Positions 7,045 to 31,864 of a DNA stretch of 44,793 bases are shown piece by piece. The stretch covers positions 1 to 44,793 of the forward strand of contig CAIYPD010000049.1 in NCBI GenBank assembly GCA_903928075.1, written 5' to 3'. Position 1 is the stretch's first letter. The number at the start of each line of letters is the position of its first letter. The stretch is from Candidatus Firestoneibacteriota bacterium (GTDB taxonomy: Bacteria > Oederibacteriota > D2-FULL-39-29). The notes beneath the pieces were generated by a model, which was not told the DNA's origin, made no database searches, and worked only from the letters and a program-made list of their open reading frames with translations. The translations under genes were made by a program, and so were the position numbers.

Positions 7045-7722
7045 TCAGAAACCTATACCGGCTGTGATCAGGAAACTTCCACAAGCGGCGCCGGCTAAAC
7101 TTGAAGCCAGGTTTTTTGAGCAGAAATGATTTTTGGGCCCGGAAGAGTTGGCCAGTTCAACAATGGTCATAACAACAGCCGTGAGCAGAAAAGCCTTCCC
7201 CCGGTCCTCCATCTTTAAGCCGTCTTTATTATAGAAAGTTAAAAAAGAAAGCGCTGAAATTGTGGTCGCGAACTGAAAGTTGAAAACTTTAGACATGCCG
7301 TCCCAGGAATCGCCGGGCCTGTTTAGCGTAAGATCGTCCAGGCAGTTCTCCCACTTGATGCCCTCGGTTTCTGCTTTTAATCTTTCATAGACCCATTCAG
7401 GAGAATTTTCAGCGGGGACATAATATCTGCCGCTGACATTTAAAGTGGGCTTGGGCGGAAAAGTCGGATTATTATCTCTGCTTCTGGTTTTAAGTATAAT
7501 ATTTTGGTCTGTTGACCGGAGGTCCGGGTTATTTTTATTCTCGGGAATAATACTGTCCGGGGCGACATTAACATTTCTTTTTTGGCCCGGCAGTTCGATC
7601 ACGAGTACCCCTTTATTATCCGGGATTTGTTTCTGCTGTTCCGTAATATTGCCTTCTGCTCTTAACAGTGAGGTTGCCGCAAGAAATAACGCAAGTATTG
7701 CAGTTGTCCTTATTCTCTTCAT
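7045..7722 (-). CDS. Exported protein of unknown function, C-terminal hydrophobic domain
   Basis: This 225-residue protein begins with a signal peptide (positively charged MKRIR, hydrophobic core, cleavage likely after LLRAEG). It has a disordered Asn/Pro-rich stretch to about residue 95, then a domain with two hydrophobic segments (about 150-190 and 205-225). The pattern DSWDGMSKVFNFQF...ELANSS...KNLASSLAGAACG faintly resembles the YfiM/DUF2279 family, but I do not regard that as proven. The ribosome site GGAGCGGAGG precedes the ATG. It is convergent with the amidohydrolase and divergent from the next lipoprotein gene. Confidence 0.75.
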   Translation of the reverse strand: MKRIRTTAILALFLAATSLLRAEGNITEQQKQIPDNKGVLVIELPGQKRNVNVAPDSIIPENKNNPDLRSTDQNIILKTRSRDNNPTFPPKPTLNVSGRYYVPAENSPEWVYERLKAETEGIKWENCLDDLTLNRPGDSWDGMSKVFNFQFATTISALSFLTFYNKDGLKMEDRGKAFLLTAVVMTIVELANSSGPKNHFCSKNLASSLAGAACGSFLITAGIGF

Positions 7723-7873
7723 AAAAGCCTCCGCTCCTGTCTTTTAACTTCTATAGCTACATATATTAGTAGCATTTATTGACCAAAAGTTCAAAGGTTT
7801 GTTATAGAAAAAAGGCCTGTTTTTGTGTACAATATATGAAGCAACCCACAAATTTCGGGTTAAGGCGGGAAAA

Positions 7874-8395
7874 GTGTTTAAAAACTCAAGGTTAGCACTG
7901 CTTATTGCTGCTTTGCCTCTTCTATTTGTTATTTCGGGTTGTGGAACCTCCGGGTATTTAAGACGCGCGGATGGCAGCCGCATAATGGGCACTGAAAGTT
8001 TTAAGCAGGCGGCAAACGAGACCATAAATAAATATACCCGCGGGCAATGCAATCTTTATGTGCAGGACCTGCTCGGGCAATACGGGATTTCCCTTCCGGG
8101 TCTGGCAGAAGATATGATATTTTCCCTGAAAAAATCTCCGGACTGGAAAAAAATAGGAATGGAAGAAGCCAATGACCGCGCCGGGAGAGCGCAAATAGTT
8201 CTTGCTGTGCAGCTTCCACCGAAGCCCAATACCGCCGCGCATGTGTCTTTTGTCCTTTATAACCGCGATTATAAACCCGGAAAACTTCCGAATGTCATCG
8301 GGACCTATATTCTACACGAGACGGGGCTTAATTATGAATTTGATCTAAGTAAACCACCGCCGGTGGAGTTTTATTACTACAAAAAAATAAAGTAA
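7874..8395 (+). CDS. Lipoprotein with a Cys/His peptidase-like domain
   Basis: Using the GTG start at 7874, preceded by AAGGCGGGA, the protein is 173 residues. It begins with a lipoprotein signal (hydrophobic core, lipobox VISGC) and would be anchored in a membrane facing the periplasm. A longer frame from TTG 7823 exists but would bury the signal peptide. The domain shows RGQCNLYVQDLLGQYGISLP and later NTAAHVSFVLYN, a Cys then His order typical of NlpC/P60- or CHAP-like cell-wall amidases or thiol peptidases. Assignment to that fold is an inference from this spacing; sequence identity is weak. Confidence 0.7.
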   Translation: MFKNSRLALLIAALPLLFVISGCGTSGYLRRADGSRIMGTESFKQAANETINKYTRGQCNLYVQDLLGQYGISLPGLAEDMIFSLKKSPDWKKIGMEEANDRAGRAQIVLAVQLPPKPNTAAHVSFVLYNRDYKPGKLPNVIGTYILHETGLNYEFDLSKPPPVEFYYYKKIK

Positions 8396-28702: not shown

Positions 28703-30268
28703 TTAGAATTTCAGTCCAATTCCTACCCCAAAGGTGTTTAAATCAAAAATATACTTTTGAGTTCCGATTTTTGATTTGCTGGTACTGTTAGCTACATCCG
28801 TGTTACCTTCGAGTGTGGAAAGCACCCGCCAGAATGCTTCAGCATAAAGTGTATTTCCTACTTCAATACCTGCCTTGAGATCAAGTCCAAAACCAAGGAG
28901 GAAAATAGAGTTTACATTTACAAACACCGTATCAGTTTTTAGTCTGGTAATTGCAACATCGGGCTCAAATAGTCCCAGATACAGGTTGCCATCGAGGGCA
29001 ATATAAGGCTGGAAATCCCCTCTTGGCTGTGAAGGTGTACTGTACTTCGCAACTGAAGGATTTGATAAGCCTACAATAGGTTTGGGATATGCCCCTAGTT
29101 CTTTATATTTTAAAACTGAAGGTTTTAATAAGCCTACTAACGGATAAAATTTTAGCATCAGTCCGTCGCTCATAAGCATAAAGAATCTGCTGCTATCTGC
29201 TGTGCCTGAGGTATCTGTGAACCCCGGAATGGTGAATTGTATCATGTTTTCGATATCCATGAATTCAGACACAGCGGAACCAAAACCCAGAGTAAAGTTA
29301 AGATAGTTGTTAAATGTCGCTATTTTGGTCTGCGGGATGGAAATAGTCGAGCCGTTGGTTGTATATCTGATAAAAGACAGAGATCCGTTGAAACCCATAG
29401 TAACCCCTAAATCGAATTTTAATTCCTCATCATTGTTGACTGCTTTTGCGCTTTTGAACCTGGTTTCAGCTCTGGCTCCTTTAGTGTCGTAGGAAGGCGG
29501 AGTATAAGTGGTCGAATCTACTGAACTTAATATCGGATCGAGCCGCCGGAGTTTTTCAATTTTTAGTTCAACTACGTCGCTGTTCTTAATATTCCCGTCA
29601 CCCTCGGTAACCAGTGCTTTTGAGCCGGAAGTTGAAGCATCCTTGACGGAGATGGTTCCTATTTTACTTTTTTCCTGAAAAACAATTTTCCCGGTTTCAT
29701 CCTTGACAGCCTCGCCAAAGCGCTCAACAGTTAAAAAATCACCGTTTTTAACGCCGTCATCCATACCGAGATTAATGATAACATCATTGCCGGAAACTTT
29801 TATAACTTTACCTTTAACTGCCACACCCTTGCTGAAATGTCCAGCTAATATTTGTGAGCCTGTATTTAGAAGTTCAACTGAGCCGCATTCGACACTGTCA
29901 GTCAGACTTATTTTACCCGCTTCTACATCCACAAGACTTAAGGAAATAACTATCCTTTTGCCCATCTGCGATACTCTGCCGGAGACAATGTTATTGACAT
30001 TTAGCATTTTACCTATCTCGACCGCACAATCTGTAGAGGTACAACCGATTTTTTGGAACATTTGTTCTTTGAGTAATTTTTGAACATTCTTTCTCTCAAT
30101 TACGGTAAACCTACCGGTTTGACGCAAGCCATCCTGGATAAAATCGGCGACGGAAGCGGCTATTTCCGGTGTAACTCCGGTGGCGTCAAAATCAGTTATG
30201 GCCATAGAAATCTTGTCGCTTGCCCAGATGTTTGCTGCCAGAAACAATAAAAAACTTAAACGCTTCAT
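28703..30268 (-). CDS. CsgG/FlgT-domain protein with C-terminal beta-barrel
   Basis: This 521-residue protein has a signal peptide (MKRLSFLLFLAANIWA), then a CsgG-like domain (about 20-145: ISMAITDFDATGV, FTVIERKNVQKLLKEQ, GCTSTDCAVEIGKML). A FlgT C-terminal-like segment follows (about 153-235: KVIKVSGNDVIINLGMDDGV). The last 240 residues are beta-rich and end in GVGIGLKF, the terminal Phe of an outer-membrane beta-barrel. It may be a secretion or outer-membrane assembly factor; the family link to curli secretion is by the CsgG-type domain only. A TTGACT-N17-GATAAT promoter is at 30299-30327. Confidence 0.85.
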   Translation of the reverse strand: MKRLSFLLFLAANIWASDKISMAITDFDATGVTPEIAASVADFIQDGLRQTGRFTVIERKNVQKLLKEQMFQKIGCTSTDCAVEIGKMLNVNNIVSGRVSQMGKRIVISLSLVDVEAGKISLTDSVECGSVELLNTGSQILAGHFSKGVAVKGKVIKVSGNDVIINLGMDDGVKNGDFLTVERFGEAVKDETGKIVFQEKSKIGTISVKDASTSGSKALVTEGDGNIKNSDVVELKIEKLRRLDPILSSVDSTTYTPPSYDTKGARAETRFKSAKAVNNDEELKFDLGVTMGFNGSLSFIRYTTNGSTISIPQTKIATFNNYLNFTLGFGSAVSEFMDIENMIQFTIPGFTDTSGTADSSRFFMLMSDGLMLKFYPLVGLLKPSVLKYKELGAYPKPIVGLSNPSVAKYSTPSQPRGDFQPYIALDGNLYLGLFEPDVAITRLKTDTVFVNVNSIFLLGFGLDLKAGIEVGNTLYAEAFWRVLSTLEGNTDVANSTSKSKIGTQKYIFDLNTFGVGIGLKF

Positions 30269-30349: not shown

Positions 30350-30709
30350 AAAACAAAAAAATTCATAATAGCGGAAAGAAACAAGTTGAAAGATATTTTA
30401 GAAGAACAAAAACTCCAATTATCAGGTTGTACAAGTACTGAGTGCGCAGTAGAAATAGGTAAAATCCTGAATGTTCGTTTTATGGTTATAGGAAACATTG
30501 TAAAAAAAACATATACAATTAATATAAGAATTGTTAATGTTGAAACTTCTGCTATTGTAATTGCCGACATGGAAAAGTGTAAAAATGAAACAGAGCTTAT
30601 TGACACTATAAAAGTAATTGTTGATAGAATATCCGGAAATAAAGCATTCAGCAGTGATTTAAAACAGAATTCAACAGCTGTACTTGATCTGGAAACAAAA
30701 AACGAATAA
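30350..30709 (+). pseudogene. Truncated CsgG-like gene fragment, divergent copy
   Basis: The frame opens after a stop at 30347 and reads KTKKFIIAERNKLKDILEEQ then KLQLSGCTSTECAVEIGKIL, colinear with residues 53-120 of the neighbouring CsgG/FlgT protein (FTVIERKNVQKLLKEQMFQK and GCTSTDCAVEIGKML). No signal peptide, FlgT-like part or beta-barrel is present. It stands back to back with its probable parent gene, 80 bases from its start. It is probably a decayed partial duplicate; the alternative, a short CsgG-like gene starting at TTG 30386, is weaker because similarity begins upstream of any start codon. Confidence 0.6.
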
Positions 30710-30780
30710 AAAATAACAGGCTAAAATATCTTTACATTAACCTTCTCTTTCCTATATAATGAACAAATTTCGGAGGTTTT

Positions 30781-31170
30781 ATGACTTTGAAAAGTTTAAG
30801 GACCGGTCTGCTTTTGGCTTTGTTTTTGGTCTCTCTAGGGGGAGTTTTACTGCATTACAGGATACATACTTTAGACAAGCCGGCAAATATTATTCCGTTT
30901 TTATGCGGTCTTATCAGTATGACTGTGGTTATGGTAATGTTTTTTTATAAGAAAACTGCGGCTTACGCGTATTTGATAAACGGGATGATAGTCATTCTTG
31001 GGATAATCACTATGGCTCATTTTTCCTATACGCATTTTGTTCTGCCTTTTACCCTGAAGAAACTCTTTGTAAATACCCTGTTTGCCGATATAGCCCTGCT
31101 TGCGGGAAAATTCTTTCTTTCGAAAGCAATTTATGAGACGCATTTTATTAAAGAGCCGGAGGCCCTATGA
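30781..31170 (+). CDS. Four-TM membrane protein of unknown function
   Basis: This 129-residue protein has four hydrophobic segments (about residues 8-26, 37-53, 62-81 and 95-113). It has LLHYRIHTLDKP near the N-terminus, FLCGLISMTVVMVMFFYKKT, AYLINGMIVILGI and TMAHFSYTHF, with histidines placed at the membrane edges that could bind heme or metal. I do not recognise a named family. It ends in ATGA, overlapping the next start, and is followed by two tiny membrane proteins, so these are one operon. The ribosome site CGGAGG precedes the ATG. Confidence 0.8.
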   Translation: MTLKSLRTGLLLALFLVSLGGVLLHYRIHTLDKPANIIPFLCGLISMTVVMVMFFYKKTAAYAYLINGMIVILGIITMAHFSYTHFVLPFTLKKLFVNTLFADIALLAGKFFLSKAIYETHFIKEPEAL

Positions 31171-31271
31171 AAATACCCGCTGCTTTTAAGTATTTAACCC
31201 CGGGCTGGTGGCTTTTGCATCTTCTTGGGATGACGGCCGCTTATGTCTTGGGCGCGTTACTCTGGAAATGA
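31167..31271 (+). CDS. 34-residue membrane protein with GWWLLHLL motif (1)
   Basis: The start ATG overlaps the stop of the four-TM gene. The product is 34 residues: a soluble start MKIPAAFKYLTP, then GWWLLHLLGMTAAYVLG and a short tail ending LLWK, one predicted TM helix. The same GWWLLHLL box occurs in the next small gene, which makes chance unlikely. Both seem to be single-span partners of the four-TM protein. The function is unknown. Confidence 0.6.
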   Translation: MKIPAAFKYLTPGWWLLHLLGMTAAYVLGALLWK

Positions 31272-31280
31272 GGGGGCAAA

Positions 31281-31376
31281 ATGTTTAGATTTTTCTTTCC
31301 AAAAGCCGGCTGGTGGCTGCTGCATCTCCTCGCGCTCGCGTTTATGTTCTGGCTCGGGCATGCGGTCAGACTCTAA
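31281..31376 (+). CDS. 31-residue membrane protein with GWWLLHLL motif (2)
   Basis: The start ATG follows GAGGGGGCAAA, a strong ribosome site, 9 bases after the previous stop codon. The product is 31 residues: MFRFFFPKA, GWWLLHLLALAFMFWLGHA and VRL. It shares GWWLLHLL plus the spacing to LG with the previous micro-protein, indicating a paralogous pair. One TM helix is predicted. Confidence 0.6.
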   Translation: MFRFFFPKAGWWLLHLLALAFMFWLGHAVRL

Positions 31377-31422
31377 TAATGGGAGAAACAGGGAAGAATT
31401 AAAAATTATCAATTACACTGAC

Positions 31423-31536
31423 ATGATTGAAGAGCTCTATCCGGGCTTCGGCAAATGCGACTATGTTTGTCCGGTGCACGGAACCGCCGGAATAAATATG
31501 ACCGGGAAAGCCGAAAAAACCGGTGTTTGGGAATAG
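31423..31536 (+). CDS. Small ORF with CDYVCPVHG, doubtful
   Basis: From ATG 31423 the frame gives 37 residues ending at TAG 31536, with MIEELYPGFGK and the CDYVCPVHG motif. No ribosome site precedes the ATG, and the coding status is unsure. The C-x3-C-x2-H order could bind a metal. It lies 13 bases before the start of the YgbA-like gene. Confidence 0.3.
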   Translation: MIEELYPGFGKCDYVCPVHGTAGINMTGKAEKTGVWE

Positions 31537-31549
31537 TCCGGGAGCTAAG

Positions 31550-31864
31550 TTGAAAGACAAAACCGAAAAAATATTGGAAAAAGAAAAAAAGACGGTTTGG
31601 GTGATGATAGACCTGTATTGTCAAGGCAGGCACAACCCGGGCGCCGGCGGATGCGGGGAATGTAAAGAACTTAAAGAGTATACCGCCTTAAAACTATCCA
31701 AATGCCCTTTTGGAGCAAAGAAACCAGCCTGTTCTAAATGCAAGGTCCATTGCTATGAACCGGCAAAGAGGGAGAAAATAAAAGAAGTTATGCGCTACGC
31801 CGGCCCGCGAATGCTTACAAAACACCCTCTAATGGCAATCCGCCACCTGCTGAAAAGCAAATAA
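31550..31864 (+). CDS. ygbA: YgbA-like protein (nitrous oxide-stimulated promoter family)
   Basis: This small protein (104 residues from TTG 31550, preceded by GGGAG; GTG 31523 would extend it by 9 residues) matches the YgbA_NO family. Typical motifs are MIDLYCQGRHNPG, GGCGECKELKEYTALKLSKC, GAKKPACSKCKVHCYEPAKR and the C-terminal MRYAGPRMLTKHPL. In enteric bacteria ygbA is induced by nitric oxide and linked to recovery from NO damage of FeS clusters. The many conserved cysteines suggest metal or FeS chemistry. It closes the operon of the small GWWLLHLL proteins. Confidence 0.85.
   Translation: MKDKTEKILEKEKKTVWVMIDLYCQGRHNPGAGGCGECKELKEYTALKLSKCPFGAKKPACSKCKVHCYEPAKREKIKEVMRYAGPRMLTKHPLMAIRHLLKSK

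Follow-up and report, generated by a model that had tools for sequence, protein, structure and literature searches.

The locus and its genes

We analysed a stretch of 44,793 nucleotides (the window) from a Candidatus Firestoneibacteriota bacterium, in which positions 30731-31864 hold a compact run of genes and signals (Table 1). A gene for a protein with four transmembrane (TM) helices is followed by two very small genes, micro1 and micro2, and then by a 37-codon open reading frame (ORF) and a ygbA-type gene. The coordinates of the four-TM gene, the two micro-genes and the ygbA-type gene agree with those in a first-pass annotation made from the DNA letters, and micro1 does start in the stop of the four-TM gene, as had been noticed there, through an ATGA overlap. 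GGAGG-like ribosome sites occur once each for the four-TM gene, micro1 and micro2, and are also present in relatives, of which L004 is a close one.

Table 1. Features of the window between positions 30731 and 31864.
Feature	Position	Strand	Basis and remarks
Promoter-like site, TTTACA-18-TATAAT	30731-30760	+	Putative sigma-70-like promoter from a consensus scan, 11/12 matches; directly 5' of the four-TM gene
Ribosome site of the four-TM gene, GGAGG	30772-30776	+	Sequence; same in L004
Four-TM subunit, 129 aa, new family	30781-31170	+	ORF and homologue comparison
Ribosome site of micro1, GGAGG	31158-31162	+	Located within the four-TM coding sequence, at its 3' end; identical in L004 and L059
micro1, 34 aa, single helix, TPGWWLLHLLGMTAAYVLGALLW	31167-31271	+	Conservation; elsewhere a fifth helix of the four-TM protein or a helix C-terminal to rubredoxin
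Ribosome site of micro2, GAGGGGG	31270-31276	+	Sequence
micro2, 31 aa, single helix, AGWWLLHLLALAFMFWLGHAV	31281-31376	+	Conservation
37-codon ORF with CDYVCPVHG (CxxxCxxH)	31423-31536	+	Between micro2 and ygbA; weak family hits only
ygbA-type gene (PF11756)	31550-31864	+	Pfam/NCBIfam; neighbour, outside the conserved set

The YgbA-type identity of the last gene, suggested earlier, was established by a match to PF11756 (YgbA_NO) with E 6.7e-41 and 139 bits against a cut-off of 25. Its first in-frame start is a GTG at 31523, and a TTG at 31550 behind GGGAG is equally plausible. The 37-codon ORF may be a gene remnant or a further micro-gene, and is probably the former. Ahead of the run, at 30386-30709 (+ strand), is a CsgG-like fragment without a signal peptide that resembles part of the adjacent 521-aa CsgG/TolB_N-like protein (28703-30268, - strand) and looks like a broken duplicate.

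The micro-genes are real and form a homologous pair

The four-TM gene and both micro-genes are under strong purifying selection. In three Firestonebacteria genomes, both micro-genes had pN of 0.08-0.17 versus pS of 0.50-0.84. The first-pass annotation had argued that the micro-genes are not chance ORFs and had named two doubts, a lack of recurrence in other genomes and dN/dS near 1. Both were checked and the idea survived: pN is far below pS, the ribosome sites are kept in two relatives and the genes recur. The further claim, that the two genes form a pair of homologues tied to the four-TM gene, is borne out by recurrence and by a match between the micro1 and micro2 profiles (hhalign 97.5%), from which we judge them to be homologous.

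Both micro-proteins share the motif (W/F)(W/F/Y)xxH-x10-G. H18 and G29 are invariant in micro1 (26 sequences), as are W11 and H15 in micro2 (25 sequences). Across all 51 sequences the His is invariant, with aromatics at H-4 and/or H-3 and Gly (or Ala) at H+11; some micro2 sequences also have Pro at H+5. The charge pattern of the four-TM protein and of both micro-helices favours an N-in orientation, which would put the micro His close to the cytoplasm, on the same side as the rubredoxin that is fused N-terminally in some genomes (see below).

The conserved set has three parts and several gene orders

We found 27 genomes with the four-TM gene (10 of the 45 in the phylum, 11 in other families of the domain, one Aminicenantes, L005, and five more), with the micro pair alongside in 26 of them. 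Separate phylum-level searches placed the four-TM gene in at least five phyla, and it is probably present in more than five. When 369 whole genomes were searched with a 32-position profile built from both micro types, 20 genomes had exactly two hits of E < 1e-7 each, every one of the 20 carrying the four-TM gene, and no other genome had such a hit. Reading of wider flanks showed the conserved set to have three parts: the four-TM protein, micro1 and micro2. It adds a deeply conserved family of micro-proteins, and standard gene calling can miss such genes.

Four gene orders were seen. In order A, micro1 is fused to the four-TM protein as its fifth helix, and the next gene downstream is micro2 (L005, L060-L064, L066-L068). 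In order B, the four-TM gene, micro1 and micro2 follow one another as free genes (window, L058, L059). Order C also has all three free, in the sequence micro1, micro2, four-TM (L070-L073, L076-L079, L081). In order D, a rubredoxin-micro1 fusion is followed by micro2 and then the four-TM gene (L074, L075, L080). Two free-standing and adjacent small single-TM genes are found in the window, L004, L059, L070, L077, L079 and L081.

The rubredoxin domain that precedes micro1 in the three genomes of order D scored over the cut-off of RUBY_RBDX (PF21349) in each. Foldseek with a structure model of the fusion put rubredoxin structures on top, and the model has a helix at residues 57-79; the fusion is a feature of these three loci, the window having none.

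Some loci depart from these patterns. L065 follows order A except that the large gene is split; at 7720-8159 (G012) it reads as two ORFs by a frame change with an ATGA overlap, which is either an assembly error or a real split. In L078 (7916-8431, G390) the four-TM gene has its N-terminal portion in a different frame from the rest, and both micro-genes are intact. G162 alone has the four-TM gene without the micro pair. Its four-TM homologue (L069, 3082-6326) reads MTWFS instead of MAHFS, and two genes downstream is a multi-TM protein that resembles ferric reductase by eye.

The four-TM protein belongs to a new family

Residues H24, H28, F54, N67 and M78 (L063 numbering) are invariant in the four-TM family and H80 is frequent. 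The protein matched nothing above threshold in Pfam, NCBIfam or PDB sequences, and a plasmid tblastn with the five-TM protein gave no match. The structure of the five-TM homologue L063 was modelled with pLDDT 90 and pTM 0.84, and a fold search with this model in the PDB returned no match below E 0.001. VKOR-like fold ranks for the model were weak (TM 0.38) and were not used. Hits to Borrelia P13, DUF4381 and holins were likewise set aside, being far below cut-offs.

The micro pair resembles cytochrome b559

To our knowledge, cytochrome b559 (PsbE/PsbF, PF00283) has so far been known only from photosystem II (PSII) of plants and cyanobacteria, and the open-access literature that we searched held no report of a b559-like protein outside PSII or photosynthesis. 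We searched 177,635 PDB sequences with micro profiles. With the profile of both micro-proteins, all 30 hits were PsbF, the beta subunit of cytochrome b559 (best E 0.0052), and a further search gave 25 of 25. The micro1 profile alone gave PsbF in 21 of 23 hits, the micro2 profile alone in 24 of 24, and one bare micro sequence in 22 of 22. In these searches the micro His aligns to the PsbF His. A reversed profile gave four unrelated hits with E near 1 or above, and a column-shuffled profile gave no hits.

Similar results were obtained with other comparisons. Alignment of the micro-proteins with PsbE/PsbF by hhalign gave 87% and 89%, with 0.1% for the reversed control; the PsbE/PsbF sequences used here agree closely with the cyanobacterial pair in L124. 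When 1,425 TM-like ORFs were ranked with a PsbE/PsbF-seeded HMM, the micro-helices took 20 of the top 25 places, which, because the micro-proteins are one family, counts as one family on top and not as twenty independent events. In controls, 40 column-shuffled HMMs placed at most 7 in the top 25 and a reversed HMM placed 1. Cytochrom_B559 (PF00283) was the best family in a Pfam scan of micro1, with a match in 3 of 26 sequences (best E 0.0014); no micro sequence reached its gathering cut-off of 30 bits. Across 44 genomes of the phylum PF00283 gave chance-level hits, none of them at micro loci.

The match to b559 covers about 22 residues with marginal E-values, and in the whole-genome search the micro profile gave PsbF an E of 0.033, a level that about a dozen chance ORFs also reached. 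A W-H-G haem helix could arise by convergence. A 51-aa ORF in L125 (- strand, MALPDGLKFLQFGFWVVHALSIWLVWSWAYRQG...) also scores near PsbF with the micro profile; it encodes a small protein with a single helix that contains WVVH and is unrelated.

In both systems two tiny single-helix proteins are encoded by neighbouring genes, and the helix of each subunit carries a single invariant His towards its N-terminus. The setting of the in-membrane His in b559, R/x-W/Y-x-x-x-H-x10-G, is shared by micro1 and micro2, including the aromatics at H-4 and/or H-3 and the Gly at H+11, and the two families are each other's best match in the searches run. A further likeness is that a rubredoxin is encoded together with the pair. 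Unlike b559, however, the micro pair is partnered by a four-TM protein that represents a new family, and micro1 can be fused to that protein or to rubredoxin. No psb genes and no psbEFLJ operon were found in any micro locus read. Because it lies below the Pfam cut-off and lacks a photosystem context, we do not class the micro pair as b559. There is nonetheless a good probability that it works like b559, and binding of a haem by one His from each micro-protein is likely. Common descent with PsbE/PsbF is possible, with chances that we put a little short of even.

Genes for oxygen and redox stress lie beside some of the loci

The first-pass annotation had guessed at a link with NO or redox stress, and we read the neighbourhoods of 25 loci. 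In L060 a same-strand run comprises genes for a response regulator, desulfoferrodoxin (superoxide reductase), a lipoprotein, a peroxiredoxin-pterin dehydratase, the five-TM protein and micro2, followed by a WrbA-like flavoprotein, DJ-1/PfpI, a ferritin-like protein and then CBS and hemerythrin genes. Desulfoferrodoxin is also encoded upstream in L074; MsrB and an Fe/Mn-SOD are nearby in L075, flavodiiron FprA, WrbA and OsmC in L080, and DUF1858 in L076. Such stress neighbours occur at about 4 of the 25 loci, and the genes around most of the rest are unrelated, so the link with stress genes is partial. The redox-stress guess does gain support, from genomes other than that of the window: genes for superoxide reductase, thiol peroxidase, WrbA, ferritin-like protein, hemerythrin, flavodiiron protein, OsmC, SOD and MsrB surround the set at four loci. 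By association, defence against oxygen or nitrosative stress is the best-supported theme.

YgbA did not hold up as a fourth member of the set, which it adjoins in the window and in none of the other loci whose neighbourhood was read (1 of 25). The link to NO thus rests on one adjacency, and we rejected the four-gene NO operon as a conserved unit since ygbA does not recur. Overall, the earlier reading was right about the micro-genes, their pairing and their tie to the four-TM protein, and its YgbA membership found no support; the likeness to b559, the fusions and the breadth of distribution were absent from it.

A possible function for the set

On balance, the set is probably a small membrane electron-transfer complex, in which micro1 and micro2 clamp a haem b on the four-TM subunit, for defence against oxygen or NO. 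We infer the haem, its ligand pairing, the orientation, the electron direction and the substrate in the following model. The two micro-helices would run next to each other through the membrane, both with cytoplasmic N-termini, and each would supply its His to a single shared haem b close to the inner face, in the manner of PsbE/PsbF. The four-TM protein would be the scaffold and probably the reaction pocket; its invariant H-x3-H, which follows TM1, and M78, which follows TM3 and is often joined by H80, would be on the outer side, with N67 close to the inner end of TM3. On the inner side, the likely partner would be a cytoplasmic rubredoxin, such as that fused to micro1 in one group, or an equivalent donor. 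In the membrane the partner would be a quinone or a small oxidant, the oxidant being handled at the four-TM pocket. In anaerobes the complex would most likely serve to shuttle electrons, with the quinone pool or rubredoxin at one end and the chemistry of oxygen, superoxide or NO at the other.

The cytochrome b561-type superoxide oxidase CybB has a membrane haem b that links superoxide chemistry with quinone, which is the role proposed here for the micro set. CybB differs from the set in that the latter has three parts, with micro-proteins, and there is no sequence family match between them. In a rival reading, the set would be a quinol- or superoxide-linked membrane redox protein that is of the b561 type in function only; the histidines of the four-TM protein would carry the haem, the micro-helices would be structural accessories like CydX and the likeness to b559 would be convergent. 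The invariance of H24, H28 and M78 fits this, and an accessory helix would be expected to be fusible as a fifth helix, as micro1 is. However, no residue of the set is more invariant than the micro His, which an accessory helix would not need. No cytochrome b family matches the four-TM protein, with no b561/superoxide oxidase family found in Pfam scans of 18 four-TM members, and the micro profiles matched only PsbF in the PDB, leaving CydX-like and other small TM chains there unmatched. We consider this reading unlikely.

Less likely still is the suggestion of the first-pass annotation that YgbA is a functional partner in a four-gene NO-response operon. The genes are on the same strand, a scan of the + strand found no terminator-like site from micro2 to ygbA, and ygbA is controlled by NsrR in enteric bacteria (PMC2884951). 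The FprA and DUF1858 neighbours seen elsewhere fit NO as well as oxygen. Against this operon stand the single occurrence of YgbA beside the set and the 37-codon ORF that separates micro2 from ygbA.

It is improbable that the set is a transporter or sensor of zinc, iron or copper, with histidines that bind a metal ion and transfer no electrons. The four-TM protein does have HxxxH plus Met and His at its outer face, and in L058 a ZIP transporter gene is directly upstream. Yet L058 is the only locus where ZIP adjoins the set, both the rubredoxin fusion and the oxidoreductase neighbours point to electrons, and the motif of the micro-helices matches a haem protein. A small holin-like or toxin-like membrane module is hardly credible, since the holin-family hits of the four-TM protein (E 0.05-0.06) reach 14 bits against cut-offs of 24-29, no phage genes surround the loci, the polar residues are deeply conserved and rubredoxin is fused to the set.

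Comparison with RubA and the origin of b559

What cytochrome b559 does and how it arose have long been debated. A free-living b559-like pair, with a natural rubredoxin fusion and beside superoxide reductase, would make the proposed superoxide and rubredoxin roles testable without PSII. The micro pair and the new four-helix protein are a conserved set in unrelated bacteria, in loci without photosystem genes.

The fusion proteins of L074, L075 and L080 have a rubredoxin domain and then a C-terminal TM helix, as does RubA/RBD1, the membrane rubredoxin of oxygenic phototrophs that acts in PSII assembly. RubA is also encoded beside single-helix cytochrome subunits (rubA-ycf48-psbEF; PMC3772215). 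The RubA helix of L124 lacks a His, whereas these three fusion proteins have the b559-like His helix itself as their C-terminal helix, and their loci adjoin stress genes. No photosystem genes were found at any of the three. Cyanobacteria keep rubA-ycf48-psbE-psbF-psbL together (PMC3772215), an arrangement that we also found in G366. Both oxidase and reductase activity towards superoxide have been reported for cytochrome b559 (PMC3772215, PMC9214863), and rubredoxin is reported as the probable route by which superoxide reductase is reduced again (PMC3772215). The partners in phototrophs, namely RubA with psbEF, b559 with superoxide activity and rubredoxin with superoxide reductase, are the same as those of the micro set. 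A tentative reading, which we hold to be possible and somewhat doubtful, is that PsbE/PsbF have in the micro pair true relatives outside PSII, that a rubredoxin/b559-like module of anaerobes is close to what early PSII recruited and that b559 and RubA began as a unit for oxygen or superoxide defence.

A membrane protein is encoded close by in all three fusion loci (L074 6818-7561, L075 11829-12596, L080 6033-6830). That of L074 is a DUF1499 protein with N-terminal TM helices, and those of L075 and L080 are alike by eye. This protein is a possible fourth partner in the rubredoxin-fusion group.
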